From NCBI GenBank assembly GCA_945865405.1, contig CAMBDS010000001.1, forward strand, positions 124,001 through 188,000: 64,000 nucleotides of DNA, read 5' to 3'. The notes beneath the pieces are model-generated. The model searched no databases. It saw nothing but the letters and a program-made list of their open reading frames with translations, and was not told the DNA's origin. This stretch comes from Caldithrix abyssi DSM 13497 (GTDB lineage Bacteria; Electryoneota; AABM5-125-24; Hatepunaeales; Hatepunaeaceae). Both the position numbers and the translations under genes were made by a program. This document shows, one piece after another, positions 4,801 through 61,200 of the stretch (positions are counted from its first letter, which is position 1; each line of letters starts with the position of its first letter).

Positions 4801-7701
4801 ATGAAACAATCGGACTTGACTGTATGGCTTTCAGCCTTCCCTGCGATTGCCACATACCTTCTGGCAGCCAACCTTCACGCCGCAACGCCCGCTCCAACAG
4901 CGGGGACACTGGGCCAGACGCCGCTCTACTTCACCGAGAACAAGGGACAATGGGACGAGCGTGTCCTCTACAAGGCCGATGGCGGAGCCGGGTTGACGTG
5001 GTGGTTTGAGCGCGACGGCTTGACGATTGCTGTGGCGATGCCGGATACAAGCAATCCACTGCCAGCCCGCCTCACGCAACCACTGCCAGCCCGCGGCGGC
5101 TGGCAGGATGAAAGAGGTGTCGGCTACGGCGAGCCGACACTGGATGACCCTCCCCCCCGTAAGGGCCACGCCCTCAAGCTCCGCTTCGTCCCTTCCCCGT
5201 CCCAGACACCATCCGACCTCGTCATTGCGAGCGCAGCGAAGCAATCTCTTCCTACCCAAACAGCCTCTGAGGTCATCCCGGAGGGCAAGCTTGGCTGGAA
5301 CAACAACTACTTCCTCGGCAACGACTCGTCTAAGTGGGCTCCCGATTGTGGGAACTTCACTCGGCTGACGTACCGGAATGTCTGGCCCGGCGTCGATGTC
5401 GTCTATTACGGCGAAGGCGATCACCTGAAGTACGACTACGTCGTGAAGCCCGGCGCAGATCCGGCTGACGTGCGGTTAAGGTGGCTGGGGTTGGATGAAC
5501 CGCTTGTCGTATCGCCGTCATCCTTGACGGCATCGGATTCGGGAGCCGCCAAGGATGGCGGCGGTACGGAGCTTCTCCTTGCAACCTCAGTCGGCACACT
5601 CCGCGAAGCCCTCCCGCTCGCCTACCAGCGCGACGCGTCGGGGAATCGCGTCCCGGTCGCCGTGACGATGAAGGTTTTGACTGACAACGAGTTCGGGCTG
5701 GAGGTCGTCGGGGCTTGGGATAAGGGAAAGGAGCTGGTGGTTGATCCGTTGGTCTGGAGCACGTATTTGGGGGGAAGTTACGAAGATTGTGCTTATGCGA
5801 CAGCATCATCAGAGGGGAATACCATAGTCACTGGCAGCACAGAAAGTGATGATTTTCCGGTTAATGAGGGAGCATTTGACAACTCTTTCAACGAAGGTTC
5901 TGATGCATTTGTCACAAAATTCAACCAGCTTGGTAACGAACTTATTTATTGCACATATGTTGGAGGAAGTACATGGGAAACTGCATTTGATATTATTGCC
6001 GATTTGGAAGGAGGTGCCGTTATTACAGGTCAAACCAGAAGTCGCGATTTTCCAACCACACAAGGAGTTTACAGTAGGAATTATTTAGGAGGATATGATA
6101 TTTTTGTCACAAGTCTAAATGTAGAAGGTGATGAATTGATTTACAGTACTCTGTTGGGTGGACGCAGAAACGAAGTTGCCACTACGATTGCTTTTGATGG
6201 CTCAGGTGGTGTCTATATCGCAGGTACAGCAGAGAGCGAAGAATTTCCCATTGTTGGAGGAGCATTTGATCCAACTGGAAACGGTCGTGATGATACTTTT
6301 GTTGCCAGATTTATGGATAGTGGAACCAATTTGTATTTCAGTACTTACTTGGGCGGTCGTAACGATGACGGTGCTACCGCAGTCATTATGGATGAGCAAG
6401 TTGGAGTAATTGTAACAGGAATCACTAGTTCAGGAGACTTCCCAACATCAGATGGAGCATTCAATCAAGAGCACAATGGAAATCGAGATGGTTTTGTAAC
6501 CAAATTAAATGCCGATGGCAATGAATTGATTTACAGCACCTATTTAGGTGGAAGTATTAACACACCATCGGCTCTTTCACTGTCTGGTATTGAACCTGGA
6601 GAGGTGTTTGTGGCTGGGCTAATTTACGGTGGTAGATTCCCTATGACGGATGGAGCATTCGACAGTCATGCAGATGGTTGGCAGGATGCCTATGTTGCCC
6701 GACTTAGCCGGGATGGCACGGAATTGCTTTGCGCCACATATTTGGGTGGTGACGAGTCTGAGGATGCGAAAGCTCTCACGAATGACGGCGTTGGGGGAAT
6801 CGCAGTCACGGGTTGGACAGACAGTGATGATTTTCCCGTAACAAGAGCTGGATATGATCAGTCACGAAATGGTGGACGCGATATTTTTGTCGCCAGACTA
6901 AGCGGTGATTTAAGCGAGTTAGAATATGGGACCTATTTAGGCGGCGATGGGGTTGATTGTCCATATGGATTATCGCTATCTGCAGCAGGTACGGTGGTTG
7001 TTTCCGGACAAACTTATAGTAGCAATTTCCCTACAACAAGGGGCGCTTTTGACGAGCGATGGAACAACATCAATGAATGTTTCATTACCTATATCAGTAT
7101 TTCAAACATGTGGTGGGAAGATATGCCAGACGTGATTGAAGTAGCCGAGAATGACTTCATCGAATTCACCATTCGTGGGATGAGTACAGACGAAAACGCT
7201 CGGTTGAACATTACTTACACATCAGAAAACCTACCTGACTCAGTCCACTTTATTGACAACAATAACCAAAGCTGTACCTTCTCATGGCACACCACTTTCG
7301 ACGACGCCGGCGAATACACCGCAATCTTCACTCTATCCGACAGCGAAAACGAAATCAGTGCTGAAGTCCGAATCATCGTCAACGACGTCAACTCCGTAAC
7401 TAACCCCCAATCCGCCATTCCCGCCGACTACTTCCTTGCTGACGCGTTCCCCAACCCGTTCAACTCAAGCACCACTATCCGCTACGGCTTGCCTGTTGCT
7501 GGTATGGTGAGTTTAAGCGTCTATGACTTGTCGGGAAAGAAGGTGGCGGTTCTGATGGACGGGTACGGAGACCCGTCCTCCTACGCGGCGGGCTGGCACG
7601 AGATTGTCTGGGACGCAGGAGCCGTCCCGGCGGGAGTCTATCTGGTCGAATTGAATTCGGGTAAAGCGCGAATTGTGCGCGAAGCAGTGATCGTAAAGTA
7701 G
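4801..7701 (+). CDS. SBBP (beta-propeller) repeat exported protein with T9SS/Por-like C-terminal tail
   Basis: N-terminal LYFTENKGQWDERVLYKA.., repeated STYLGGS..D.A..VTG.T.S.DFP.. units, C-terminal FPNPFNSSTTIRYGLPVAG..AGVYLVEL. Confidence 0.8.
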   Translation: MKQSDLTVWLSAFPAIATYLLAANLHAATPAPTAGTLGQTPLYFTENKGQWDERVLYKADGGAGLTWWFERDGLTIAVAMPDTSNPLPARLTQPLPARGGWQDERGVGYGEPTLDDPPPRKGHALKLRFVPSPSQTPSDLVIASAAKQSLPTQTASEVIPEGKLGWNNNYFLGNDSSKWAPDCGNFTRLTYRNVWPGVDVVYYGEGDHLKYDYVVKPGADPADVRLRWLGLDEPLVVSPSSLTASDSGAAKDGGGTELLLATSVGTLREALPLAYQRDASGNRVPVAVTMKVLTDNEFGLEVVGAWDKGKELVVDPLVWSTYLGGSYEDCAYATASSEGNTIVTGSTESDDFPVNEGAFDNSFNEGSDAFVTKFNQLGNELIYCTYVGGSTWETAFDIIADLEGGAVITGQTRSRDFPTTQGVYSRNYLGGYDIFVTSLNVEGDELIYSTLLGGRRNEVATTIAFDGSGGVYIAGTAESEEFPIVGGAFDPTGNGRDDTFVARFMDSGTNLYFSTYLGGRNDDGATAVIMDEQVGVIVTGITSSGDFPTSDGAFNQEHNGNRDGFVTKLNADGNELIYSTYLGGSINTPSALSLSGIEPGEVFVAGLIYGGRFPMTDGAFDSHADGWQDAYVARLSRDGTELLCATYLGGDESEDAKALTNDGVGGIAVTGWTDSDDFPVTRAGYDQSRNGGRDIFVARLSGDLSELEYGTYLGGDGVDCPYGLSLSAAGTVVVSGQTYSSNFPTTRGAFDERWNNINECFITYISISNMWWEDMPDVIEVAENDFIEFTIRGMSTDENARLNITYTSENLPDSVHFIDNNNQSCTFSWHTTFDDAGEYTAIFTLSDSENEISAEVRIIVNDVNSVTNPQSAIPADYFLADAFPNPFNSSTTIRYGLPVAGMVSLSVYDLSGKKVAVLMDGYGDPSSYAAGWHEIVWDAGAVPAGVYLVELNSGKARIVREAVIVK
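5117..5140. repeat. NCGGMG-loop hairpin, in frame in CDS
   Basis: gtgtcggct-acggcg-agccgacac, 9-bp arms. Confidence 0.75.
7558..7577. repeat. NCGGMG-loop hairpin, in frame in sorting-domain code
   Basis: gacgggt-acggag-acccgtc. Confidence 0.7.
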
Positions 7702-7740: not shown

Positions 7741-10083
7741 ATGAAACCCAATGATTTTCCAATGAAACGAGCACCATTAGTCGCGCTACTATTCGCTTTG
7801 GGCTCAAGTGACGCCCGGGCGCTGGTTTACAGCACCTTCCTGGGCGGGAGCTCCGGCGAGCCATCCTACGCTCTCTGCGTGGACGGCTCCAATGGCATTG
7901 CGGTAACAGGAAGCACTTCCAGCGATAACTTCCCGACCACTCAAGGCGTTATCGACCGCGGCCTTGGCGGCAGGTCCGATATTTTTATCAGTAGGTTTTC
8001 CCCCGACGGCACCCGGCTCCTGTTCAGCACCCATCTCGGTGGCGACGAACGGGAAGTAGCCTATGATATTGGACTTGAAGCGGATGCTGGATTCGCCATA
8101 GTTGGGTATTCATTAAGCGATAACTTTCCAACGACCAACGGTGCTTATGATCGACAATTTAACGACGGAGAAACGGCAAGTCGTGATATCGTCGTAGCCA
8201 AGATCAATCTGGAAGGCAATCGCCTTCGCTTCAGCACCTACGTCGGAGGATCGGAGACCGAAACTGGTCAGGCGTTAGCTGTGACCGAAGCAGGGAACGT
8301 TGTCTTTTCCGGCAATACGTACAGCACCGATTTTCCGACTACCGAAGGAGTTGTTGCGCCGAACCACCATGGTGGCAATGACAGAATCGATCTTTTTGTG
8401 GCTTCGCTTAACGCGGATGGATCGGAGCTTGTCTATGCCACATATCTTGGCGGCAGTGAACAAGAGGAAGCGTGCGAGGTGATCCTGCATGGTGAGAACG
8501 TGGTTGTTATCGGATCGACAAACAGTCAGGATTTTCAGACCACCGAAGGCACACTCGATGGATCACCAAGCTACGATACGTTCATCACCTGTCTGAACAG
8601 CGACGCCAGCGAACTGGTGTTCGGCACCTACGTCGGCGGAGGGAATAACGGCGATTATGGCAATGCCGGTTGCATCGATGTCGAAGGGAATTTCGTCGTT
8701 TCGGGAAGGACGGAGTGTGACGATTTTCCGGTCTCCGAAGGCGTATTCGACAACCGCTATAACGGCGATTACGACATGTTCGTCGCTAAAATCAACGAAG
8801 ACGGAACGGAACGCCTCTACGCAACTTACCTCGGTGGCTCAACCGTCGATATGAGCTTTGGAATCTGCCGGGATTCCGAGTCGGGCGTGGTCATTGCCGG
8901 TGTTTCAGCGAGTAACAACTACCCGGTGACGGATGGGTCGTACGATGATTCATTCGGCGGAGTTACCGATATTGTCGTGACAAGGCTTTCGCACGACGGC
9001 GATGAATTGTTGTACAGTACTTTCGTTGGCGGCGAATACGAAGATCGGATCGAAGACATCCTGCCATATAAGGACAATATCGTTGCAATGACAGGCTATA
9101 CGTATGGCGACGATTTTCCGACGACTGACAATGCGTATGATCGGCAGTTCAATGGGGCTAACGACGCGGTAGTCATCAAAGTCGATGTTACGCCAGTTGA
9201 GTTTGTCGAGTTGCAATGGATCGACGTGCCGCCGGATACGTTCGACGTCTATGAGACCGATTACATCGAATTCAACGTTCGGGGTATTGGGCCGGAGGGT
9301 CGTGAGTTGAGGATTATCTATATGCGCAACGGGTTGCCGAATGAAGCGATCTTTATCGACCAAGGTGACGGGAGCGGGACGTTTGAATGGCAGACGGACT
9401 ATGAGGATGCTGGCTTTTACGCGCCTATTTTCAGGTTGACTGACGGACGGACTTCGGTCGATCTGCGTGTTTTCATTATCGTTCGTAATGTCAACCGTCC
9501 GCCGGAGTTCTTTCATCTGGCTGACAGCCTTTGGGTTAATGAAGGCGAGCTCCTCGAATCGGTAGTAACGGCTACTGATCCAGACGGAGATTTGGTTGAG
9601 TTGGTATTCGATCCACAACTCCCGGCAGGATGGACGTTTACGGATCACGGTGATGGGAGCGGTTTGTTTTCGTGGCAGCCTGACTTTGACGAAGCGGGGG
9701 AATATACTGCGAATGTTTATGCTTCGGACGGTCAGGTCGGGGTTGACACGACGATGATCATAACGGTCAAAGACGTGATTTTGAGTGCTCCTGGTGAGTC
9801 CGCCATGCCGACGGAATATTTCCTTGCTGACGCGTTCCCCAACCCGTTCAACTCAAGCACGACGATACGGTTCGGGTTGCCGGTGGCGGGGGAGGTGAGT
9901 TTAAGCGTCTATTACTTGTCGGGCAAGAAGGTGGCGGATTTAGTCGGGCTCGGCGGCCCGACCTACGCGGCGGGGTGGCATGAGGTTGTCTGGGAGGCGG
10001 GAAATGTTCCGGCGGGGGTTTATCTTATTGAGATGCAAACTGCTGGCGGAAAGCTCTCAAAACGAGTAGCATTGATTAAGTAA
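7741..10083 (+). CDS. SBBP repeat exported protein with T9SS/Por-like tail (paralogue of the preceding gene)
   Basis: ALVYSTFLGGSSGEPSYALCVDGSNGIAVTGSTSSDNFPTTQG.. repeats; FPNPFNSSTTIRFGLPVAGEVSLSVYYLSGKKVAD tail. Confidence 0.8.
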   Translation: MKPNDFPMKRAPLVALLFALGSSDARALVYSTFLGGSSGEPSYALCVDGSNGIAVTGSTSSDNFPTTQGVIDRGLGGRSDIFISRFSPDGTRLLFSTHLGGDEREVAYDIGLEADAGFAIVGYSLSDNFPTTNGAYDRQFNDGETASRDIVVAKINLEGNRLRFSTYVGGSETETGQALAVTEAGNVVFSGNTYSTDFPTTEGVVAPNHHGGNDRIDLFVASLNADGSELVYATYLGGSEQEEACEVILHGENVVVIGSTNSQDFQTTEGTLDGSPSYDTFITCLNSDASELVFGTYVGGGNNGDYGNAGCIDVEGNFVVSGRTECDDFPVSEGVFDNRYNGDYDMFVAKINEDGTERLYATYLGGSTVDMSFGICRDSESGVVIAGVSASNNYPVTDGSYDDSFGGVTDIVVTRLSHDGDELLYSTFVGGEYEDRIEDILPYKDNIVAMTGYTYGDDFPTTDNAYDRQFNGANDAVVIKVDVTPVEFVELQWIDVPPDTFDVYETDYIEFNVRGIGPEGRELRIIYMRNGLPNEAIFIDQGDGSGTFEWQTDYEDAGFYAPIFRLTDGRTSVDLRVFIIVRNVNRPPEFFHLADSLWVNEGELLESVVTATDPDGDLVELVFDPQLPAGWTFTDHGDGSGLFSWQPDFDEAGEYTANVYASDGQVGVDTTMIITVKDVILSAPGESAMPTEYFLADAFPNPFNSSTTIRFGLPVAGEVSLSVYYLSGKKVADLVGLGGPTYAAGWHEVVWEAGNVPAGVYLIEMQTAGGKLSKRVALIK
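9943..9962. repeat. NCGGMG-loop hairpin, in frame in sorting-domain code
   Basis: gtcgggc-tcggcg-gcccgac. Confidence 0.7.
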
Positions 10084-27716: not shown

Positions 27717-28160
27717 CTATCTATAAATTTTCCCAAGTTCAGCCCATTGGTAGTCTTTTATCTCTGGCCAACGTTTGATCGGATTCCCAAGAATGTAGTT
27801 TCCTTTTTCAGTCATTTCAGCCTCATCGCGAACTATCCGGTCAAAATATTCCCGTTGCCAAATAGTTCCACTATGAGATCCGTGACGCTGAATTTCATGG
27901 GCTGAAAACGACTTCCATGAATGCACGATTTTCTCGACAGTCCATGGAACAAGCGGTGTTAGCAAGACATGAACGTGATCGTCCATCACGACATAACAGT
28001 GAATAGTATAACGAGTGCCGTCAAAAAATAGAATTGCATTAGCAACGATAGTTCGCTCATTGGGGTCAAGTGCTGATTGTTTTGGATTGAGACGCCATGT
28101 TACAAAGTAGGTAGCGCCCTCGACTCGCCAATGCGGAAGAAATCTTGAATAACCTTCCAT
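27717..28160 (-). mobile_element. REP-associated tyrosine transposase (Y1/IS200-like, RAYT)
   Basis: LPHWRVEGATYFVTWRL.., VVMDDHVHVLLTPL (HxH), WQREYFDRIVRDEAEMTEKGNYILGNPIKRW. Confidence 0.88.
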
Positions 28161-28177
28161 ATGTTCTCCAGTGAATG

Positions 28178-28235
28178 GTAGCATCGCCGTCTCCGGCGGT
28201 CACGAATCCCATCCCGCCGCAGAGGGCGGGGCTAC
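28178..28235. repeat. REP-like doublet with GTAG heads, other side of the RAYT gene
   Basis: GTAGcatcgccgtctccggcggtcacgaatcccatcccgccgcagagggcggggCTAC, near copy of 27607-27694. Confidence 0.8.
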
Positions 28236-32903: not shown

Positions 32904-33452
32904 ATGAAAATTTACACCAAGACCGGCGACTCCGGTGAAACAGGTCTCTACCGCGGCGGTCGAGTAAAAAAAGATTCGGCGCGAATATCATCATACGGCA
33001 ATGTCGATGAATTGAACAGCCAGATCGGGTGGATCAGGACACTCCCCATCGGCGACGAAGCCGATCAATACCTCTATCGCATCCAGAATGACCTCTTCGT
33101 AATCGGGGCTGACCTGGCGACTCCCGAAGAGGCGGTCAAGCTCGGCGACAACGTCACCCGCATCCTGCCCGACTCGCAACTCTTCATGGAAGAGGCTATC
33201 GACCTGATGGAGACCCGCCTTGAGCCGCAGCGTGTTTTCATTCTTCCCGGCGGTTCACCAGCCGCAGCGGCAATCCACCTCGCGCGAACGATCTGCCGTC
33301 GCGCCGAGAGGGGGGTTGTCTCGTTGGCTCGTACGGAGCACATCTCGCCGCAGGTCGTGATCTACCTGAACCGACTCTCCGATTTTCTTTTTGTTCTGGC
33401 GAGAGATCAGAACAGGCTTGCCGGAGTCAACGACGTTCCGTGGCAGAAATAG
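32904..33452 (+). CDS. Cob(I)yrinic acid a,c-diamide adenosyltransferase, PduO type
   Basis: MKIYTKTGDSGETGLYRGGRVKKDSARISSYGNVDELNSQIG..FILPGGSPAAAAIHLARTICRRAER. Confidence 0.92.
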   Translation: MKIYTKTGDSGETGLYRGGRVKKDSARISSYGNVDELNSQIGWIRTLPIGDEADQYLYRIQNDLFVIGADLATPEEAVKLGDNVTRILPDSQLFMEEAIDLMETRLEPQRVFILPGGSPAAAAIHLARTICRRAERGVVSLARTEHISPQVVIYLNRLSDFLFVLARDQNRLAGVNDVPWQK

Positions 33453-33469
33453 CGTAAGCAAGCTTACGC
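33452..33469. repeat. AAGCAAGCTT-core hairpin
   Basis: gcgtaagcaagcttacgc followed by actcc. Confidence 0.75.
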
Positions 33470-33514
33470 ACTCCGACTCGAATTAAAGGTAAATTCAATT
33501 TTTCATAGAATGCA

Positions 33515-48263: not shown

Positions 48264-50111
48264 CTACGGAGCGAGGAGCTCGGTGACGGCTTTAACCACA
48301 AATGGTCGAGATTCTACTACGTTAAGGAAATAGATCGGGAAGCCACAAGTGATCGTTCGCCACGGATTTAGCGGTGAGAAATTCTTCATCGCCATCCCCA
48401 TACCCGTAAACGCGTGCTCGGGACCCCACTCGGCAATCTTCTCCGTGCGGTGGGCCGGATAGATCACCCAGCAACGGTCAAGCGAGCCGCCCCACGCGGC
48501 TGGCACCTTTGTCGGATCGATTTGCACATTGTTGTAGCCAGCAAGGCCGGTCGCAAGCGAGAAGGTTCGATCCGTCGTCCGCTTGCCTCCGGTAATGCGT
48601 AGATAACGCTGTGCGAAGACGGCAGTCGAAGTGTATGTTATAGAGTCGACGTCGGCGGCGTTGAAATTGGAAAGAACGTCCCAGCCGCAAAGGAAGAGTT
48701 TGCCTCCTGCATCGAGATATTCACTTAACAGCCGCAAATTATAGGCACCGACTTTCAGATCGAAACTCGCCTTATCGTCGGAATGCCAGACGATAAGATC
48801 TTTATCGAAAACGTCTTTGGCAGAGATGTATTTGTTGGGGTCAACCGTCCGGTTGGTGTAGTCAAGCTCGGTGATACGCCAGCCTTCAGGTGAAACCAAT
48901 GCGGTCGTATCATAACCGAAGATTTCACGCCAGACCTCGTCTGCCTGAGCGTCGTCGGGAGAACCGGCGCGGCCATTGCCGTCACGAGTCTCATCGACGA
49001 TCAAAATGCGAGTCGGTGCATCGTCACTAAACGTCGGGCGGAAGATCTCGAAGTCGTAGCCTGTCACGGTGCTTATGTTGCCACTCCAGTCGCGACATTC
49101 GGTTTCGAAACGGTAGGCTCCAGGTGCGAGATCCTGCACATCGTACTCGCCAACACCCCACGCCGACCACTCGGCGGTTCCGCCAGTCGGCATCAGCCTG
49201 TTGCGGAAAGCCTGAACGCTACCGAAATAACTTTCGGCAGAGGCAGAAACGACAAAATGCGTTGTTGCAGCGTCTGAATAGAACACAGAACCGTCAGGGT
49301 AGTAGTCCTGACCTTCGTAGGTTGATGCGACATTGGTAACTGTCGGGTCAAGTGTATCGCTGACGACGATTCTTCTGGTGACCGAGTCACTGACTGCTCC
49401 ACCCCAGTCCATCACTTTGACTGTCAGTGTTCGGGGTCCTGCCTGAAGTAAATCGATGTTGACAGGCTTGACCGCACCTGAATCGACGGCATTAAGGATC
49501 GAGCTTTCGGACGTTTTGCAGAACTGGAACGATGAGCGAGAGTCCCAATCAGTTACAGCTACTCCATCGACCCAAAGGCGGAAGTAAGCACCCGAAGAAT
49601 TGGAGTCGCTCCAATTGATCGAAAATGCGATGCCCTGCCCAACGGTATTATCATTCCTGAAATCGGCGACGAATTCGCGGATCACAGGGATGTAGTTCGT
49701 GGCGCTGAAAGCTCGCGTTGCTGGCGTAGGATCTTCGAGGCCGCTGTCATCCATAGCTTTGACGCGGATGGTATGAGCAGAAGGAAGGGTCCTGCCGGGG
49801 TTGTTTGCGTCGGGGGTTGACGACTCGAATGCCATCGCTGAGTCGGTCTTCGTCATCCAGACCCAAGGCCCGCTATCGACTTGAAGGTAGTAGCCGCTGA
49901 CCTGACCATCGGGATCGCTGCCGAACCATTGTACGTTGAAGACAAGCTCAGGCGAAACGTAATGGTCGTGCATAGCGTCGTCAATGGGAGCGACGACAAT
50001 ACGGGTATCAGGAGCACGGTTGGCAATCGGTGAGCCGGGATCAGCTGGTTCACATCCCCAGAGTAGAGGAAGGATCAGAGCGCCGGTTGCGAGAAGTTTA
50101 TTGATTTTCAT
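48264..50111 (-). CDS. Hypothetical lipoprotein with Ig-like segments (last gene of the TonB receptor operon)
   Basis: MKINKLLATGALILPLLWGCEPADPG lipobox. Confidence 0.6.
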   Translation of the reverse strand: MKINKLLATGALILPLLWGCEPADPGSPIANRAPDTRIVVAPIDDAMHDHYVSPELVFNVQWFGSDPDGQVSGYYLQVDSGPWVWMTKTDSAMAFESSTPDANNPGRTLPSAHTIRVKAMDDSGLEDPTPATRAFSATNYIPVIREFVADFRNDNTVGQGIAFSINWSDSNSSGAYFRLWVDGVAVTDWDSRSSFQFCKTSESSILNAVDSGAVKPVNIDLLQAGPRTLTVKVMDWGGAVSDSVTRRIVVSDTLDPTVTNVASTYEGQDYYPDGSVFYSDAATTHFVVSASAESYFGSVQAFRNRLMPTGGTAEWSAWGVGEYDVQDLAPGAYRFETECRDWSGNISTVTGYDFEIFRPTFSDDAPTRILIVDETRDGNGRAGSPDDAQADEVWREIFGYDTTALVSPEGWRITELDYTNRTVDPNKYISAKDVFDKDLIVWHSDDKASFDLKVGAYNLRLLSEYLDAGGKLFLCGWDVLSNFNAADVDSITYTSTAVFAQRYLRITGGKRTTDRTFSLATGLAGYNNVQIDPTKVPAAWGGSLDRCWVIYPAHRTEKIAEWGPEHAFTGMGMAMKNFSPLNPWRTITCGFPIYFLNVVESRPFVVKAVTELLAP

Positions 50112-50126
50112 TGATTTTCTCGCTGG

Positions 50127-51230
50127 TTAAAAGTTAATGCCGAAGGAGAAGCGGTGCGGCGACTCCATAAAGCCGTCCGACGCTTCTGCTATCTTACCGA
50201 AGCCAAGATAGGCGTAATCAAGCATCGCAACGCGCTGATCGGCGATGGGGATCTTCAAGCCAAAACCGGTGGTGAAGCGCTCCTCATCGTAGCCAAAGCT
50301 GTTGCTGATCTTGATTTTGTAACCGCCGCGGACTGCGATCATTCCTCGATACCAGAACTCTGCGCCAAGGTTCAACCGCTCGCGGTTGTCGTTGGGGTGA
50401 CTCATCTCGAAAGCCATGATCCCGTCGAAGTCGGTGGGCTTGTTCAATTGCCAGAATTCGAAGAAATTGGCAGAGACGCCGATCCGATATATTGTCGGTG
50501 GAGGCGCGCCACTGAATTTGGTAGACTGGGGGTCGGCGCGGTTGCGACGGCCCTGATCGAGGTAGTCGTAGTAATCACCGGAATACTTGACGTCGGGCCC
50601 GAAGTTTTGCACCGAAAAGCCGAGCTTAAGGGTGCGTAGGTTTGTTTCGTAGAGTGTTCCTATGTCGGCAAGCGCGCCTGTGTAGGTTTCATCTTCAAGG
50701 CCTGAAACCACCACGCGGATATTGGCTCCAAAGATGAACCGGTCTGTCAGTCTTTGTGCCCAGGAGACACCTCCGATGACGTCATAAGCGATGAAGTTCT
50801 CGCCGGTGCCGTTGGGGTGGGAGATTGTCCTGACGGGCATATCTCCTGTGTTCATCGCCAGCAAATGAACGCCGAAAACGCCCATGTTGCCCATGTTTTT
50901 GGCGAAGGCGGCTGTGTTGAACTGCACCCCGGCAGGCATGTTGATCTGCGAGAAGGCGGCGGCATTTCCATCCACATGGATAAGACCGGCCGGGTTCCAA
51001 AAGATTGAGCCGATGTCGTCGGCAGTAGCGACGTAGGCGTCACCCATGCCGATAGCGCGGACGCTTGTCGATACCTTCAGAGTTGTCAGGCTTGCGGTGC
51101 CGACCTTTTGTACTTCACGGGCAAAGGATGGAGCAGCACTCATGAAGGCAAACGTGGTAAGCAGCAGACCGGCTGAAACAAGCTTCAGCACTCCGGTTTT
51201 GGGATTATTAAAACTTGTTTTCATCGTCAC
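50127..51230 (-). CDS. PorV/PorQ-like outer-membrane protein
   Basis: GTASLTTLKVSTSVRAIGMGDAYVATADDIGSIFWNPAGLIHVDGNAAAFSQINMPAG..; signal peptide. Confidence 0.8.
   Translation of the reverse strand: MTMKTSFNNPKTGVLKLVSAGLLLTTFAFMSAAPSFAREVQKVGTASLTTLKVSTSVRAIGMGDAYVATADDIGSIFWNPAGLIHVDGNAAAFSQINMPAGVQFNTAAFAKNMGNMGVFGVHLLAMNTGDMPVRTISHPNGTGENFIAYDVIGGVSWAQRLTDRFIFGANIRVVVSGLEDETYTGALADIGTLYETNLRTLKLGFSVQNFGPDVKYSGDYYDYLDQGRRNRADPQSTKFSGAPPPTIYRIGVSANFFEFWQLNKPTDFDGIMAFEMSHPNDNRERLNLGAEFWYRGMIAVRGGYKIKISNSFGYDEERFTTGFGLKIPIADQRVAMLDYAYLGFGKIAEASDGFMESPHRFSFGINF
51172..51189. repeat. AAGCAAGCTT-core hairpin inside the PorV-like signal peptide
   Basis: gctgaaacaagcttcagc followed by actcc. 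Confidence 0.75.
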
Positions 51231-52120
51231 CCCGCATGTTTATATACGACGTAGAGGTTGACGCTGACTTCTGACCGTACCCCTGCTTCGCCAAAGCGAA
51301 CGTGAAGGGTGTGGCTGCCGGGCGTCAACCGGGTCAACCAGTCAGTAATGGGGTAAAGCTCAGGCAGTGCGTCGGGGTTGGCGGGCCTTGCCGGTTTGCT
51401 TGAGTGCCGATAACTCGGGTCAGCGGTGAAGAAGCGCTTTAGGTCGAGAGACATCCGTCTGCCACGCATACCGGTTGAGTCGAGTGATGATGCCGAAAAG
51501 AAATTCTGCCCCCAGATTGCCGTCTCGTTTCCACCAATTTGCCCTCTTGTCGCCGCTGAATCGAGGAATATCGCACGGGGATAAAATTCAACCACGTCGT
51601 TGTCGAGCCAGATCGACACCTTGAAGCGATTGTCGAGACGTGTGTCGAGCGAGTCGCGAATAACGTTTCGAGTTGTCGTTTCGCCTTGAGTCGCCACTTT
51701 CAGACCAGAGAGGCTGTCGATGGCGACTGAGTCGGCGTGGGTCTTGTTTGCCTTCAGCGAGAGATTGAGGATCTGTCCCTCAAGACTCAACAGCCGTTGG
51801 GCGAGGGAGTCGAGTTCGAGGCCATAGCGGACGTAGTTATTCAACCCGACATCAGGCCAGAGGAAGGCGTTGATGTGGAGGTCGCCGTCGGTTAGTGTGT
51901 CATCGATCGTGAAGGTGGTCGAAAGATCCGCCCCGGATGCTGCACGGTGATCGAGCAGGCTGATCGTCTCTGTGTAAGCAGGATCGTTGGTTTGCAAGGG
52001 GGCTTTGCGCTCGTCACTGCAACCGACCAAACCTACTATTATTGTCAGTAATGCCGCCGTTCGAAGGAGGCTGGCATTCTGCATTCTACGTTTTGCGTTT
52101 TGCATTTTGTTTTGCCTCAC
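51227..52120 (-). CDS. Hypothetical lipoprotein
   Basis: LLTIIVGLVGCSDERKAP lipobox; overlaps both neighbours by 4 nt. Confidence 0.6.
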   Translation of the reverse strand: MRQNKMQNAKRRMQNASLLRTAALLTIIVGLVGCSDERKAPLQTNDPAYTETISLLDHRAASGADLSTTFTIDDTLTDGDLHINAFLWPDVGLNNYVRYGLELDSLAQRLLSLEGQILNLSLKANKTHADSVAIDSLSGLKVATQGETTTRNVIRDSLDTRLDNRFKVSIWLDNDVVEFYPRAIFLDSAATRGQIGGNETAIWGQNFFSASSLDSTGMRGRRMSLDLKRFFTADPSYRHSSKPARPANPDALPELYPITDWLTRLTPGSHTLHVRFGEAGVRSEVSVNLYVVYKHAG

Positions 52121-54498
52121 TTCAACACGACAAATTTATCGATCTTCTGTTGACCGCCAGCTTTGATTACGTAGTAGTAAACTCCACTGACGATCTCCTG
52201 TTGGTATTGATTTCGCATATCCCACATCAGTTGGTCGGTTCCATCGCCGTGCGAAAGCCCGATGATGTGGTCACCAGCGAGGGTGTAGATGTCTATTTCC
52301 GCACCACCTGTTGGTAAGCCGTAGAAAAAGAGCTTGCGAGGGTAGATCTTGGTGCCGGCTGCGTTTTCAGCGCCACCGAACTCCTGAATGTGGCCACCTT
52401 TATAAGGGTTGGGGACGACAAAGACACCATCAACCAGATTACCTCCGGCGGAAGTGCCAGGCGTGGCGTCTGTGTTGCCAGCTCTTATAGTAATTGCATT
52501 GCGGCCTATTGGCGTGATCAGCGTGCCTGCGCCGGGGATGCCTTGGTCGAAGGCGCGGAGAATGTAGTGGTATGTCCATCCGGGGATGACGTCGGTATCG
52601 TCGTACCAATAAAGGCGTGACGAGTCGCCAGCCGTCACTGACCACATCCAGCCGCTGTGGGCGAAGAGGTCGGGATTGGTGAGGGCGATGTGAGCCGTAT
52701 CGTAAGGCATTCCGAGGTTGAAGTTCTCCCGCTGGAATTCCGGATAGGGCAATGTGTTGAGAACGTCCCATTGAGCCAGTGTTGACCAACGATTGGCGTC
52801 GGAGGAGCGCTGAAGTTGATAGCCCTCAAAGTCTGCCAGCTGAGAAATTGGATCGACAGAACCTTCAGAGTTGTCTTTCCAGAAGATCCGAATTTTTTCG
52901 GGGGAAGGCTCAACCCAAAACTCGGCTTGATCGGGTGCTGCTGGGCCCTGGAAGTCGTTGTCATAGATACGCTGAGCCCACTGGGCGTTCTTTCGGAGGT
53001 CGGGAAGGTTTTTACCAGCGATGAAGGCAACCGTCACGGGCAATTCTTCACCCGGTAGCAACAACCATCCGCCTGCCTTTGGCCCGAAGCCCATCAGGAA
53101 ACGCCAGTCGTCTTGCGTCGCTGTTGGGGGGCTATTGGCTTCCTCATTCTCCGAGATCAGGTTGTACTTATCGGCATTGGTCTCAGGGTCACCGCCGGAT
53201 GAACGGTTGAAGTTCTTGAAGGCGATGTTTAGCGAGTCGAGGGGTGCCGGGGTGCGGACAACCTTCATAGCGAAGAGTCCGGGGCCAAAGCCGTCGGCGT
53301 CGGTCGAGTCGTCACCCTCTACCATCATCAGGTTTTCGCGGTCGTAGAAGTTCCAGTCATCAAGCGAGGCTGGGTCGCCCGACTCACCTTTGGCGGCGAT
53401 GTCGGGATCGGCGAAGAGGCCGAGGTAAACCTCGGTCAAAGGTAACTCGCCGACATTGCGGACGATCAGGTCAACCAGGATAAACTCGCCGGCATAAGCT
53501 TCACCCCAGGCGTAGGTTCGTTGCAGAACCATCAGGTTGAGCGGAGTGTGGCCGTCGTTGTCGGGGGATTGAACCTGAGTACGGTCGCGGTCATCGTAAA
53601 CCGTGAAGTATTCCTGAGTACCACGAGCGACGCCGTCCTCATCTGCTTTACTGTCACCATCGTCATCGAGGCTATTCGGTCTGGCGTCACCATCGAAGTC
53701 GTCATCGTCCATATCGACGGCGCCATCGAAGTCGTTATCGATGAAGTCGTTCGAGATGTCACCGGCCGGGTCTTCGTCGATGTGGAATTCAGGGTCATAG
53801 TTGCAGTTTCCGTCGCCATTGATGTCGCCAGTGGCGTCGGTATCCTCATCTGTCAACCCGTCGTTATCGTTGTCGATGTTATCGGCGAATTCTTCATCCG
53901 TTGCGCCGTCGAGATCGTCATCTTTGTGGATGATTCCCTTGCCGCCGTCGCGATTGGTCGAGGGTCTGCCGTTACCGTCAAGGTCGTAGGCAATGCTCCA
54001 GTCACCGTCGTCATCGATCTCTTTGGCTCCCATGATGTAGGGGCGTCCGGCGATAGTTGCACTCTGTTTGGAGGTTGAGATATAACTGGTCGGATAGAGG
54101 TTGATCGGAAGGGTCGGAGCGAATTCGTTCGTTCCGTTGTCACCGTCGGTGCCGGTGCTTACCAGCTTTTGCCCGCTGACAATTGCACCGACCCAGATAC
54201 CGGAGCTGAAGAGAAAGTCATTCTCCGAACCACCGGGAAACTCGAATCCGAAGTAGCCGGGCGTCAGGTCGGGGTTGCCTTGCTCACCCCAATTGGAAAG
54301 GGTCATCCTGACGTTTCCAACGTCGTGAACCATCAGCGATTTTTTGCCGACGTCGATCTGGTGTTGCGGGTCCTTCGATCTGACTGGCCCGGGTTCAGTT
54401 TGACGTGCAGCGAGCGGTGTGGCGTCGAAGACTGCGAGAGCGAGGAGAGAAGCTGAAGCAAGCTTCAGCACTCCAAGTGTTTTGTTGATGTTTTTCAT
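52117..54498 (-). CDS. Large exported protein with Asp-rich (thrombospondin type 3/EF-like) Ca-binding motifs and FlgD/Por-like C-terminus
   Basis: DDDLDGATDEEFADNIDNDNDGLTDEDTDATGDINGDG..DNDFDGAVDMDDDDFDGDARPNSLDDDGDSKADEDG; ends GVYYYVIKAGGQQKIDKFVVLK. Confidence 0.65.
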   Translation of the reverse strand: MKNINKTLGVLKLASASLLALAVFDATPLAARQTEPGPVRSKDPQHQIDVGKKSLMVHDVGNVRMTLSNWGEQGNPDLTPGYFGFEFPGGSENDFLFSSGIWVGAIVSGQKLVSTGTDGDNGTNEFAPTLPINLYPTSYISTSKQSATIAGRPYIMGAKEIDDDGDWSIAYDLDGNGRPSTNRDGGKGIIHKDDDLDGATDEEFADNIDNDNDGLTDEDTDATGDINGDGNCNYDPEFHIDEDPAGDISNDFIDNDFDGAVDMDDDDFDGDARPNSLDDDGDSKADEDGVARGTQEYFTVYDDRDRTQVQSPDNDGHTPLNLMVLQRTYAWGEAYAGEFILVDLIVRNVGELPLTEVYLGLFADPDIAAKGESGDPASLDDWNFYDRENLMMVEGDDSTDADGFGPGLFAMKVVRTPAPLDSLNIAFKNFNRSSGGDPETNADKYNLISENEEANSPPTATQDDWRFLMGFGPKAGGWLLLPGEELPVTVAFIAGKNLPDLRKNAQWAQRIYDNDFQGPAAPDQAEFWVEPSPEKIRIFWKDNSEGSVDPISQLADFEGYQLQRSSDANRWSTLAQWDVLNTLPYPEFQRENFNLGMPYDTAHIALTNPDLFAHSGWMWSVTAGDSSRLYWYDDTDVIPGWTYHYILRAFDQGIPGAGTLITPIGRNAITIRAGNTDATPGTSAGGNLVDGVFVVPNPYKGGHIQEFGGAENAAGTKIYPRKLFFYGLPTGGAEIDIYTLAGDHIIGLSHGDGTDQLMWDMRNQYQQEIVSGVYYYVIKAGGQQKIDKFVVLK
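54452..54469. repeat. AAGCAAGCTT-core hairpin inside the signal peptide of the 52117-54498 protein
   Basis: gctgaagcaagcttcagc followed by actcc. Confidence 0.8.
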
Positions 54499-57400
54499 TA
54501 AAACTCCAAACCGAGGCCAAGCCTGACAAGGCGAGGATTGTCAAACGCGTCCGGGTTGGGGCCCGCATAACGATTCTGGCTGTTGTTGGGCGAGGAGGTG
54601 TCGTTGATCCAGCCCGGCACGCCACTGTAGTCGTCGTAGGAATTGGGGGCTCCGGCGCGACCGTAGTTGTCGTCTACGTTCAGGAGATTGGTCTGATCGG
54701 TCAGGTTGAAGACTTGTAGCCAGAGCGAAGTTTTGTACTTGCCGATAGGGATATCCTTGCTGACGTTCAGGTCAGCCTGATTAGTCCAGTCGGTTCGGTG
54801 CGACATGTATTGACCTTCGACAAGTGTGCCGGAGGCATCTGTAGGCGAATAGGGTAGTCCGCTGCGAATGTTCCACAACAGGCTCAGATCCCAGCCACCC
54901 GGCATACCTTGTATGCCGAAGAGCGGCTCGTTTTCGCCGTAGGTGAGACCGTAATTGAGTACAACTGCGTGTCGTTGATCCCAACCAGCGGGAAGCGCTT
55001 GGGGTGGCTCGGTGTAGTTGCCGCGGATCCCTTGTGTTCCGATGTCGTAGGAGTTCTTAGCGTTGACCCAGCTCAAAGTGTAGGTTATGCGACCAGACAT
55101 GTTGGCACCGTACTCTTTGGAGAGGTTGAACTCAACACCGCGAGCGAACGCATAGTCCTGGTTGTCATAGATGGCGAAGTTCTGTCCGATCAACGGCTGA
55201 CCGAACTTCTCCGGGTACCAATACTTGCCTTCGCGAGCATTGATCCAGTTCTTAACGTCTTTCAAAAAGCCAGTCATGTCGATCAGATAGTCCTGATAAG
55301 GGTTCCAGGCGACGCCAACCTCGAACGAAACCGTCTTTTCCGGATCGAGGTCGGGGTTGCCGATCAACGGCGTGCCACCGGTCTGAACCTGATTGACAGC
55401 GGTGAAGAGATTGTCCCATTTCGGGCGTTGATAGAAGTGGCCGTAATGAGCATGGAGGTAAGCATCCTCAGTAATTGAGAATGAAGCGCCGACGCGTGGG
55501 GAGATTTGAGCTTTGATTTTTGCAGGCTTGTCGAACGGGACGTAGTTCGGGTTCCAATCGGCGTTTGACGAATCAAAAGCCATGACGTTCTGGACTTGAT
55601 CGCCAGGCATATAGAGGTCAAGTCTGGCGCCTACCGAGATGGTGATGTCCTTGAACTCCATCTTGTCCTGGGCGTAGAGTGCTCCGTCAGCCGGATAGAC
55701 ATGATAGATGTCGGTGTAGATACCGGCTCCGTTGTTGTCTATCGTCGGGTAAGGGACTGAGTTACTAAAGAGATCGAAGTAGTTGAAGTCGATCCCGCCG
55801 CGAAGTTGGTGATACTTGTGAAGCTGAGTGGTGACCTGGGCTTTCAAGCCATAGACGTAGGACTTTTCCTCAAGCCAGTACGGGACGGGCTGACCGACGT
55901 CGTCTTCAGTACCGTCACCGGCGAGGAGGAAACCCCTATAGGCGAAGTAGCTGTTGTTTTGGTTGCCTTTGTCCCATAAACCGTCGCCATCCGTATCGAC
56001 GAACGGCTCACCGAGGTCGTAGTTGCCATTCATTTTACCATCGGAACCGGGAAGATCTGAGAACTTCTCTGCGTATTCGCCGTATTCAGAAGGCTTCTTG
56101 TTGGCACCTTGATAAAGTCGGGAAGCCATGTACCGGGACAGCTTTACGTTATAGAAGGTGTTCTTCGAGAGGGTATGATTCCATGTCAGAAGGAACTGAT
56201 CGTCATCGATAAAACGAGTCGGGAGGTGGTCGGAGGCATTGTATTCGTATGCCTGAAGGTCTTCGTCGATGCGGCCGTCAAGGTCGTCGTCCTTGCCATT
56301 AAAAGCCTCTTCATCGACGCGGCCATCACCGTCGTCATCGGTGCCACGGACGAAGGTGTACGTCTCATCATTGCCAGTCCAGGCCTGATAAGCTTCGTCG
56401 ATCTCGTCTTGTGTGTAGTCATAGGGGAAGAAGCGCGACTGGCGGAAGAGGAAGATATTGGACCATGTCTTGTTGAAGCGGTAGGCGGCTTTCATCTTCA
56501 TCGTCGGGCTGAGTTGGTAGCTTAGCTGATAGCTGCTATTGTAGAAAGTCTGCTCACGATTGGCGTCCAACCCAAGTCCACCGCTCATGTCGTGGCGGAA
56601 CCAGTCTGAGGAGTTGATGCGCACGCCATTGGAAGATGTGTTGCGACCTGTCATATCGGCTGAAATGAAGAAGGTCATATAGCCGGGGATGTTTAGCCCC
56701 AACTTTGGCAACAGGATGCTCGTGATCGGCTCGGGGCCGCTGATCGAGCCTTCTACATAGTCATAATTCTGGTAGGAAACCGGCGGTGACCACCAGGTCG
56801 TATCGACAGGCCCGAGGTTGGTGCCCTCGAATTCCGAATTAACGTGTTGTGCGAATTTCGAATCGGGGCGGGAATTGATGTCGTCGAAGACATATTTGAT
56901 TTGACCGTGAAAATCTTTGGAGCCTTCACGGGTGACGATATTGACAACAGCAGATTGGGCATTGCCATATTCAGCGTCGAAACCACCTGTCAGAGCTACC
57001 ATTTCAGCGACAGCGGGGTTTCCAATGGAGAGCATCCGCAGGTTGCTGATGGGGTCTTTGACCTCCATGCCGTCGATCAGGTAAGCGACTTCGCCGCGTC
57101 TGCCTCCGCGGATGTGGATGTTGGTTCCGCTACCGACAGCTCCACCGATATTAGCGACAGCGCCGACGAAATTTGCCACAGGAAGATTGTAGAGTTCGTC
57201 GCCGGTTGCGATACGGGTCGAAGCAGTCACGTCGGGACGGATAACTTTCCGCTCAGCTTTGACGATGACTTCCTGGCCCTGAATGATTGTGGGATCGAGA
57301 TTGAAGGAGATGTTGGTTGTCAGGTCAGCGTAAACCATAACGTCTTGCTTGATAATCCTGATGTAACCAACAGCACTGGCGGAGACGGAATATTTTCCGG

Positions 57401-57632
57401 GAGTGACATTGAGGATGATATATTCACCATCGAGATTGGTTGCAGCGCCAAAATCGCTACCCATCATGATGATGCTAACACCGGAGACGGGTTCGCCAGT
57501 CTTGGCGTCCTTAATGACACCATTAACTTTACCAGTGACCCCTGCCTGAGACGCGCCTGAGCTGAGAAGCAAAATCGTTGCTCCCAAGACCCAGAGAAGC
57601 GTCGGTTTAAAAAGCTTGCGCAAAGAATTCAA
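54498..57632 (-). CDS. TonB-dependent receptor with carboxypeptidase-regulatory-like N-terminal domain
   Basis: GVIKDAKTGEPVSGVSIIMMGSDFGAATNLDGEYIILNVTPGKY; plug IHIRGGRRGEVAYLIDGMEVKDP..NAQSAVVNIVTREGSKDFHG; C-terminal ..DNPRLVRLGLGLEF. Confidence 0.9.
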   Translation of the reverse strand: MNSLRKLFKPTLLWVLGATILLLSSGASQAGVTGKVNGVIKDAKTGEPVSGVSIIMMGSDFGAATNLDGEYIILNVTPGKYSVSASAVGYIRIIKQDVMVYADLTTNISFNLDPTIIQGQEVIVKAERKVIRPDVTASTRIATGDELYNLPVANFVGAVANIGGAVGSGTNIHIRGGRRGEVAYLIDGMEVKDPISNLRMLSIGNPAVAEMVALTGGFDAEYGNAQSAVVNIVTREGSKDFHGQIKYVFDDINSRPDSKFAQHVNSEFEGTNLGPVDTTWWSPPVSYQNYDYVEGSISGPEPITSILLPKLGLNIPGYMTFFISADMTGRNTSSNGVRINSSDWFRHDMSGGLGLDANREQTFYNSSYQLSYQLSPTMKMKAAYRFNKTWSNIFLFRQSRFFPYDYTQDEIDEAYQAWTGNDETYTFVRGTDDDGDGRVDEEAFNGKDDDLDGRIDEDLQAYEYNASDHLPTRFIDDDQFLLTWNHTLSKNTFYNVKLSRYMASRLYQGANKKPSEYGEYAEKFSDLPGSDGKMNGNYDLGEPFVDTDGDGLWDKGNQNNSYFAYRGFLLAGDGTEDDVGQPVPYWLEEKSYVYGLKAQVTTQLHKYHQLRGGIDFNYFDLFSNSVPYPTIDNNGAGIYTDIYHVYPADGALYAQDKMEFKDITISVGARLDLYMPGDQVQNVMAFDSSNADWNPNYVPFDKPAKIKAQISPRVGASFSITEDAYLHAHYGHFYQRPKWDNLFTAVNQVQTGGTPLIGNPDLDPEKTVSFEVGVAWNPYQDYLIDMTGFLKDVKNWINAREGKYWYPEKFGQPLIGQNFAIYDNQDYAFARGVEFNLSKEYGANMSGRITYTLSWVNAKNSYDIGTQGIRGNYTEPPQALPAGWDQRHAVVLNYGLTYGENEPLFGIQGMPGGWDLSLLWNIRSGLPYSPTDASGTLVEGQYMSHRTDWTNQADLNVSKDIPIGKYKTSLWLQVFNLTDQTNLLNVDDNYGRAGAPNSYDDYSGVPGWINDTSSPNNSQNRYAGPNPDAFDNPRLVRLGLGLEF

Positions 57633-61123: not shown

Positions 61124-61130
61124 ACGGAGT

Positions 61131-61177
61131 GCGCAAGCTTGCTTGCGCCAATAGTGCATGCTGAAGCAAGCTTCAGC
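61131..61177. repeat. Two AAGCAAGCTT/AAGCTTGCTT hairpins
   Basis: gcgcaagcttgcttgcgc (61131-61148) and gctgaagcaagcttcagc (61160-61177). Confidence 0.8.
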
Positions 61178-61200
61178 ACCCGAATTGTCTGTCAAAAAAA

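Follow-up and report, generated by a model that had tools for sequence, protein, structure and literature searches.

How does a dispersed, non-coding palindrome come to be read as protein, and at the same place in two secreted proteins of a single operon? The question arises from the window, by which we mean the whole 64,000-nucleotide stretch of DNA analysed here, in which the repeat word GGAGTGCTGAAGCTTGCTTCAGC is translated as GVLKL(A/V)SA in the signal peptides of two genes of one operon, the second gene differing by one C>T change. A preliminary description had offered two origins for this arrangement, a mobile palindrome domesticated as an export signal or a spread by recombination between 5' ends, and had proposed that the hairpin could modulate translation. 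Here we follow the repeat through its own genome, that of an uncultured bacterium which, to judge from its closest named relative, probably belongs to the candidate phylum Electryoneota, through the orthologous operons of related genera and through the known classes of bacterial palindromes.

Two in-frame copies of one repeat in one operon

The operon lies on the minus strand and runs from a TonB-dependent receptor-like gene (54498..57632) through an Asp-rich secreted protein gene of 793 aa without a Pfam match (52117..54498), a lipoprotein-like gene of 297 aa (51227..52120) and a PorV-like outer-membrane protein gene (50127..51221; PF19572, just below the cut-off) to a lipoprotein-like gene of 615 aa downstream (48264..50111). 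The start of the Asp-rich gene overlaps the stop of the receptor gene. The two repeat-bearing genes, those of the Asp-rich and PorV-like proteins, are not adjacent, being separated by the 297-aa gene within the same tight operon. The N-terminus of this intervening gene, MRQNKMQNAKRRMQNAS, is of low complexity, derives from a AAAATGCAAAACGCAAAACG-type direct repeat and is possibly another absorbed intergenic repeat. Elsewhere in the genome (G000 C1:283060-284451) lies a paralogue of the Asp-rich protein with 48-55% identity, possibly degraded, which carries a stop codon within one matched stretch.

Both copies sit exactly where the preliminary description had placed them, on the minus strand and in frame. 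In the Asp-rich gene the copy at 54452..54474 reads, on the coding strand from 54474 to 54452, GGA GTG CTG AAG CTT GCT TCA GC(T), that is GVLKLASA, codons 9-16 of the 793-aa open reading frame 54498-52117; the signal peptide (54406..54498) is MKNINKTL-GVLKLASA-SLLALAVFDATPLAA. In the PorV-like gene, whose ATG lies at 51221, the copy at 51172..51194 carries the C>T change in one arm, with the loss of one G-C pair of the hairpin, and reads from 51194 to 51172 as GGA GTG CTG AAG CTT GTT TCA GC(C), or GVLKLVSA, codons 11-18; the signal peptide (51117..51221) is MKTSFNNPKT-GVLKLVSA-GLLLTTFAFMSAAPSFA, both cleavage sites having been placed by eye. The repeat thus begins 8 and 10 codons (24 and 30 nt) from the respective starts. 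All 27 stretches of the genome able to encode GVLKL(A/V)SA are copies of the repeat; no convergent GVLKLxSA in other codons occurs in the genome, and no other signal peptide in it uses the repeat word.

A sharply bounded, dispersed palindrome

The element is 23 bp long, with 8-bp arms around a central TT (GCTGAAGC-TT-GCTTCAGC) and a 5' GGAGT head; AAGCAAGCTT is just the centre of this hairpin. With two mismatches allowed, the 23-mer GGAGTGCNNAAGCTTGCTTNNGC matches the 2.76-Mb genome 40+40 times, against 0 for the reversed control, and once overlaps are merged and a few weaker hairpins added, the palindrome occupies 81 distinct sites, which bears out its description as dispersed. Within the window the 18-mer palindrome is found at 3 places, which make 6 hits when both strands are read, whereas shuffles of the window lead one to expect 0.03; chance origin of the repeat is ruled out by this shuffle and by the reversed control. 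Two of the intergenic copies had been noted before and are real, one at 33452..33474 on the minus strand, a GT/AC arm variant (GCGTAAGC...GCTTACGC), and one at 61160..61182, also on the minus strand, with a degraded head (CGGGT); the latter forms an inverted pair with a further copy, a GC/GC arm variant, at 61126..61148 on the plus strand.

When 62 sites are aligned, conservation reaches 1.7-2 bits per base within the element, save at two variable arm positions, and is almost absent outside it, where all that recurs is a pyrimidine ahead of the GGAG and, weakly, C/T-T behind the element. The variable arm positions covary (TG/CA, GC/GC, GT/AC, AC/GT, TC/GA), which indicates that the hairpin is maintained. 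About 93% of the 81 sites lie outside genes; five lie wholly within them (the two signal peptides, gatA and two 3' tails of open reading frames) and one at a gene edge, as judged with a simple codon-model caller over stretches totalling about 311 kb, the majority selected around repeats. Between tandem genes the repeat is nearer the upstream stop in 36 of 48 pairs, with a median distance of 76.5 nt to that stop, as against 160.5 nt to the start that follows. The window genome has seven inverted pairs spaced within 200 bp, and a second genome with the family, G006, holds many, about 52 bp apart.

The gatA copy lies in frame in a variable segment and brings no net gain in length relative to relatives, so that replacement as well as insertion can occur. 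The same gene (L066:1823-3310) also contains, further on, a proline-rich insert, TPPPTPPASGGEVAPP, which most relatives lack; at this site the gatA of genome G002 (L204) has a different, inverted-repeat-like insert.

Relation to REPs and to resident transposases

Repetitive extragenic palindromes (REPs) are defined in part by a 5' tetranucleotide GT(A/G)G (PMC3686654). Nearly all copies of the 23-bp family have GGAG in its place; otherwise the palindrome stands beside this head with complementary arms, is present in high copy number and almost exclusively between genes, and forms REPIN-like inverted pairs. By its head tetranucleotide, hairpin, copy number, intergenic bias and inverted pairs, the family resembles a REP.

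A cognate RAYT flanked by the 23-bp repeat was found in none of five genomes (the window genome G000 and four others that carry the family, G006, G008, G018 and G024), whose assemblies are 86-94% complete. The window genome nevertheless gives six hits to Y1 transposases, and two of three genes tested pass the NCBIfam cut-off for REP-associated tyrosine transposases. One of these, at 27717..28184 on the minus strand, is flanked by its own, different palindromes and is a candidate member of the mobilising enzyme class. Different palindromes flank each of the six RAYT-like genes (C1, C3, C13, C30 and C36; loci L060-L065), which points to several REP families in one genome. L061 falls under the NCBIfam cut-off (69 against 80 bits), and the palindromes around it are GGAG-headed and, by eye, otherwise unlike the 23-bp family. 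Another of these reading frames (L060:760-1824; C1, about 216140-217210) holds a GCCACCATCYTGGTGGC palindrome several times over in frame; the palindrome also lies just downstream of it, and the transposase frame thus seems to have taken up its own repeat.

An unrelated palindrome in the orthologous operon of a sister genus

The preliminary description had held that orthologues with GVLKLxSA in unrelated codons would speak against an origin from the repeat. Instead, the two proteins have orthologues in the same family, and in the phylum, whose signal peptides are without these residues (for example MKKPFRTLTTVTLFLAFSLFLAGSALA), and the 23-bp repeat was found in no signal peptide at the roughly 20 loci of relatives that were inspected. 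The nearest relatives compared belong to other genera, at 60-69% identity, and at this distance no empty site was seen; in DNA alignment the 5' ends are highly divergent.

In L137, a locus of Candidatus Hatepunaea meridiana (Candidatus Electryoneota), the orthologous operon has in three of its genes a palindrome of 30 bp that is unrelated to the 23-bp repeat (4958-4987, 7381-7410 and 9440-9469). It lies in frame in the n-regions of their signal peptides, where it reads LCQVLTPDTT (MNNKFCNRGQPRALCQVLTPDTTLKS..., MKKNKSMLCQVLTPDTTVFYLMLVV...SACDED and MLANKHRSLCQVLTPDTTRKYGCLLIV...WGCEPEDP). Shine-Dalgarno words precede the upstream ATGs of all three genes. The L137 and G006 gene copies have an identical N-terminus, and the two are apparently the same organism; the orthologues in L136 are clean of the palindrome.

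This palindrome, GTTGTGTCAGGTGTTAACACCTGACACAAC, is perfect over 30 bp, and its 26-bp core occurs in 82 copies in G006 with up to three mismatches; with a 20-bp core, the window genome yielded no match, and three relatives yielded one or two. It reads in frame as L[CR]QVLTPD[TA]T in housekeeping enzymes as well as in the three signal peptides. By a mechanical open-frame criterion, under which some cases may be spurious, 30 of 56 copies examined lie in open reading frames, 29 of these in the QVLTPD frame. The palindrome is the same on both strands and has stops in two of three frames, so this frame is the only option and its sharing is no extra evidence. The frames are open and their families recognisable, those assigned being NadE, IspH, PurM, FolC, HpnC and FtsX (copies in G006 lie at L216, L225, L230, L237, L239, L256 and other loci), and in alignments to solved homologues the palindrome residues of NadE, PurM and IspH fall in an insertion or unaligned stretch. 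In-frame coding of the kind known from Rickettsia palindromic elements (RPEs) is seen for the 30-bp palindrome in several enzymes, as it is for the 23-bp repeat in two signal peptides and gatA. In this the Hatepunaea palindrome behaves as RPEs do.

In genome G005 (L172), the signal peptide of the Asp-rich orthologue, MKIKNENCKLKIAQIKRRKLPIFNLQFAIY..., is built from an inverted repeat that is AT-rich and about 18 bp long, and about a dozen similar AT-rich words occur in that genome. Different palindromes thus lie within the same gene's signal peptide in two genera, and probably in a third.

Discussion

What is observed at this locus is the dispersal of a palindrome, its sharp borders, its in-frame coding, its absence from orthologues and the recurrence of the arrangement with a different palindrome. 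The explanation that we favour, and hold with good though not complete confidence, is that a REP-like 23-bp element was inserted separately and in frame into two signal peptides, that both insertions were tolerated, and that their recurrence is a consequence of where such elements are placed. We posit that the element, probably mobilised by a Y1 tyrosine transposase, is copied into or just behind gene ends. Repeats would usually come to lie just 3' of an upstream stop, and where stop and start overlap, that spot falls in the signal peptide of the next gene. What the n-region must provide is no more than positive charge with hydrophobicity after it, and it may tolerate a few extra residues if the frame is kept; the TG/CA arm variant, read in the sense frame as GVLKLASA, would fit the boundary between n- and h-regions, and retention would be nearly neutral. 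In sister genera other palindromes are likely to have taken the same course, a recurrent outcome of element placement and signal-peptide tolerance. Signal peptides diverge freely, and length alone cannot part an insertion from a replacement; two hits in one operon are, moreover, a small number in an operon chosen for having them.

Domestication, in which selection keeps the repeat for its useful contribution to the export signal (a lysine where the n- and h-regions meet, together with hydrophobic residues), is the reading closest to the preliminary description. Both copies do share the frame and orientation that give GVLKLASA, and in both signal peptides the repeat adds a lysine at that boundary and makes the uncharged stretch longer, from 10 to 12 residues in one and from 14 to 17 in the other. 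Yet with the eight residues removed, each peptide keeps a normal h-region by a simple hydropathy calculation (on the Kyte-Doolittle scale, rather than with a trained predictor of signal peptides), the word is absent from every other signal peptide of the genome, and the insert found at the same place in Hatepunaea, LCQVLTPDTT, is not hydrophobic, is unrelated and also occurs in cytosolic enzymes. We found no evidence that export depends on the repeat, and consider domestication improbable. The other origin proposed, recombination between 5' ends or gene conversion of one gene by the other, would account for the shared operon, the shared frame and the similar distance from the start. It fares still worse, and we give it very little credence: the sequence common to both genes is the 23-bp element alone, identity stops at its borders, which suggests separate insertions rather than gene conversion, and the same 23 bp stand at dozens of unrelated sites. 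Misassigned starts, with the repeats upstream of the true start codons, deserve attention in view of the warning in PMC3733652 that this is so for many REPs at N-termini. In both genes, however, the stretch from the repeat to the hydrophobic core is free of ATG, GTG and TTG. The repeats are therefore inside the coding region, and initiation after them would leave no usable n-region; each upstream ATG, moreover, has a Shine-Dalgarno word resembling GGAG or GGGG in front of it. Misassignment is accordingly very unlikely here.

A role in RNA is less easily set aside. The hairpin at cistron junctions could tune expression or stability of the operon mRNA, with the peptide a tolerated by-product, an idea to which the covarying arms, the preference for the region after an upstream stop and the fact that the operon's junctions hold mutually unrelated palindromes in the two genera lend weight, as does the proposal that REPs act as post-transcriptional elements (PMC3733652). 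Against it, shuffled sequences fold as well as the mRNA around the two starts (z about -0.5), a result that leaves the suggested modulation of translation unsupported; the PorV copy has one G-C pair fewer, and arm covariation may equally reflect recognition of DNA hairpins by a transposase. We regard this reading as possible but rather doubtful. A broader version, about as doubtful, is that unrelated mobile palindromes land preferentially and repeatedly in the n-regions where stop and start meet in compact operons, with the hairpin kept as an inter-cistron RNA element and the peptide tolerated.

Separate, tolerated insertion has partial precedents. The REPs and REPINs mobilised by RAYTs in Pseudomonas and Stenotrophomonas (PMC3686654) are likewise palindromes of 20-40 bp with a conserved 5' tetranucleotide and high copy number, mostly intergenic, in inverted pairs and in genomes with RAYT genes. 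The 23-bp family differs from them in its GGAG head, in that no RAYT was found flanked by it, and in that two copies are translated within signal peptides. REPs within genes, N-termini included, have been surveyed (PMC3733652), and those of the GTAG and CGTC superfamilies are also read in frame, some of them N-terminally; here the head and lineage are others, the sites are the signal peptides of one operon, and the pattern recurs with other palindromes in related genera. RPEs, described by Ogata et al. in 2000 and reviewed in PMC2229807, lie in frame in Rickettsia genes and, like the Hatepunaea palindrome, are dispersed both between genes and in frame within conserved proteins. The likeness is one of behaviour: RPEs measure 105-146 bp in that review and belong to a different phylum, and the lengths of 23 and 30 bp here argue against RPEs proper. 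In Yersinia, a YPAL/RU-2 element fused to YPO1552 is a MITE that forms part of a signal peptide (PMC2229807), as the mobile element does here; there, fusion gave a putative new exported protein, whereas here existing signal peptides of conserved genes are affected, two or three per operon. We found no relevant report of REPs in signal peptides in the open-access literature searched, and a paper on Electryoneota leaves palindromes and repeats unmentioned. As far as that literature shows, what is new is that unrelated palindromes have repeatedly entered, in frame, signal peptides encoded by the same orthologous operon across genera, as are the GGAG-headed family and the 30-bp coding palindrome in this lineage.

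These findings present the start of a secreted protein as a place that absorbs mobile DNA without obvious harm, and outline a simple route from mobile non-coding repeat to protein, by way of placement after a stop, gene overlap and a signal peptide that tolerates the addition. That the same signal peptides hold distinct palindromes from one genus to another amounts to a natural experiment on signal-peptide tolerance, and coding palindromes, best known from Rickettsia, are extended to an uncultured lineage of the FCB group. They also carry a warning, that N-terminal residues common to unrelated secreted proteins can be repeat-derived.
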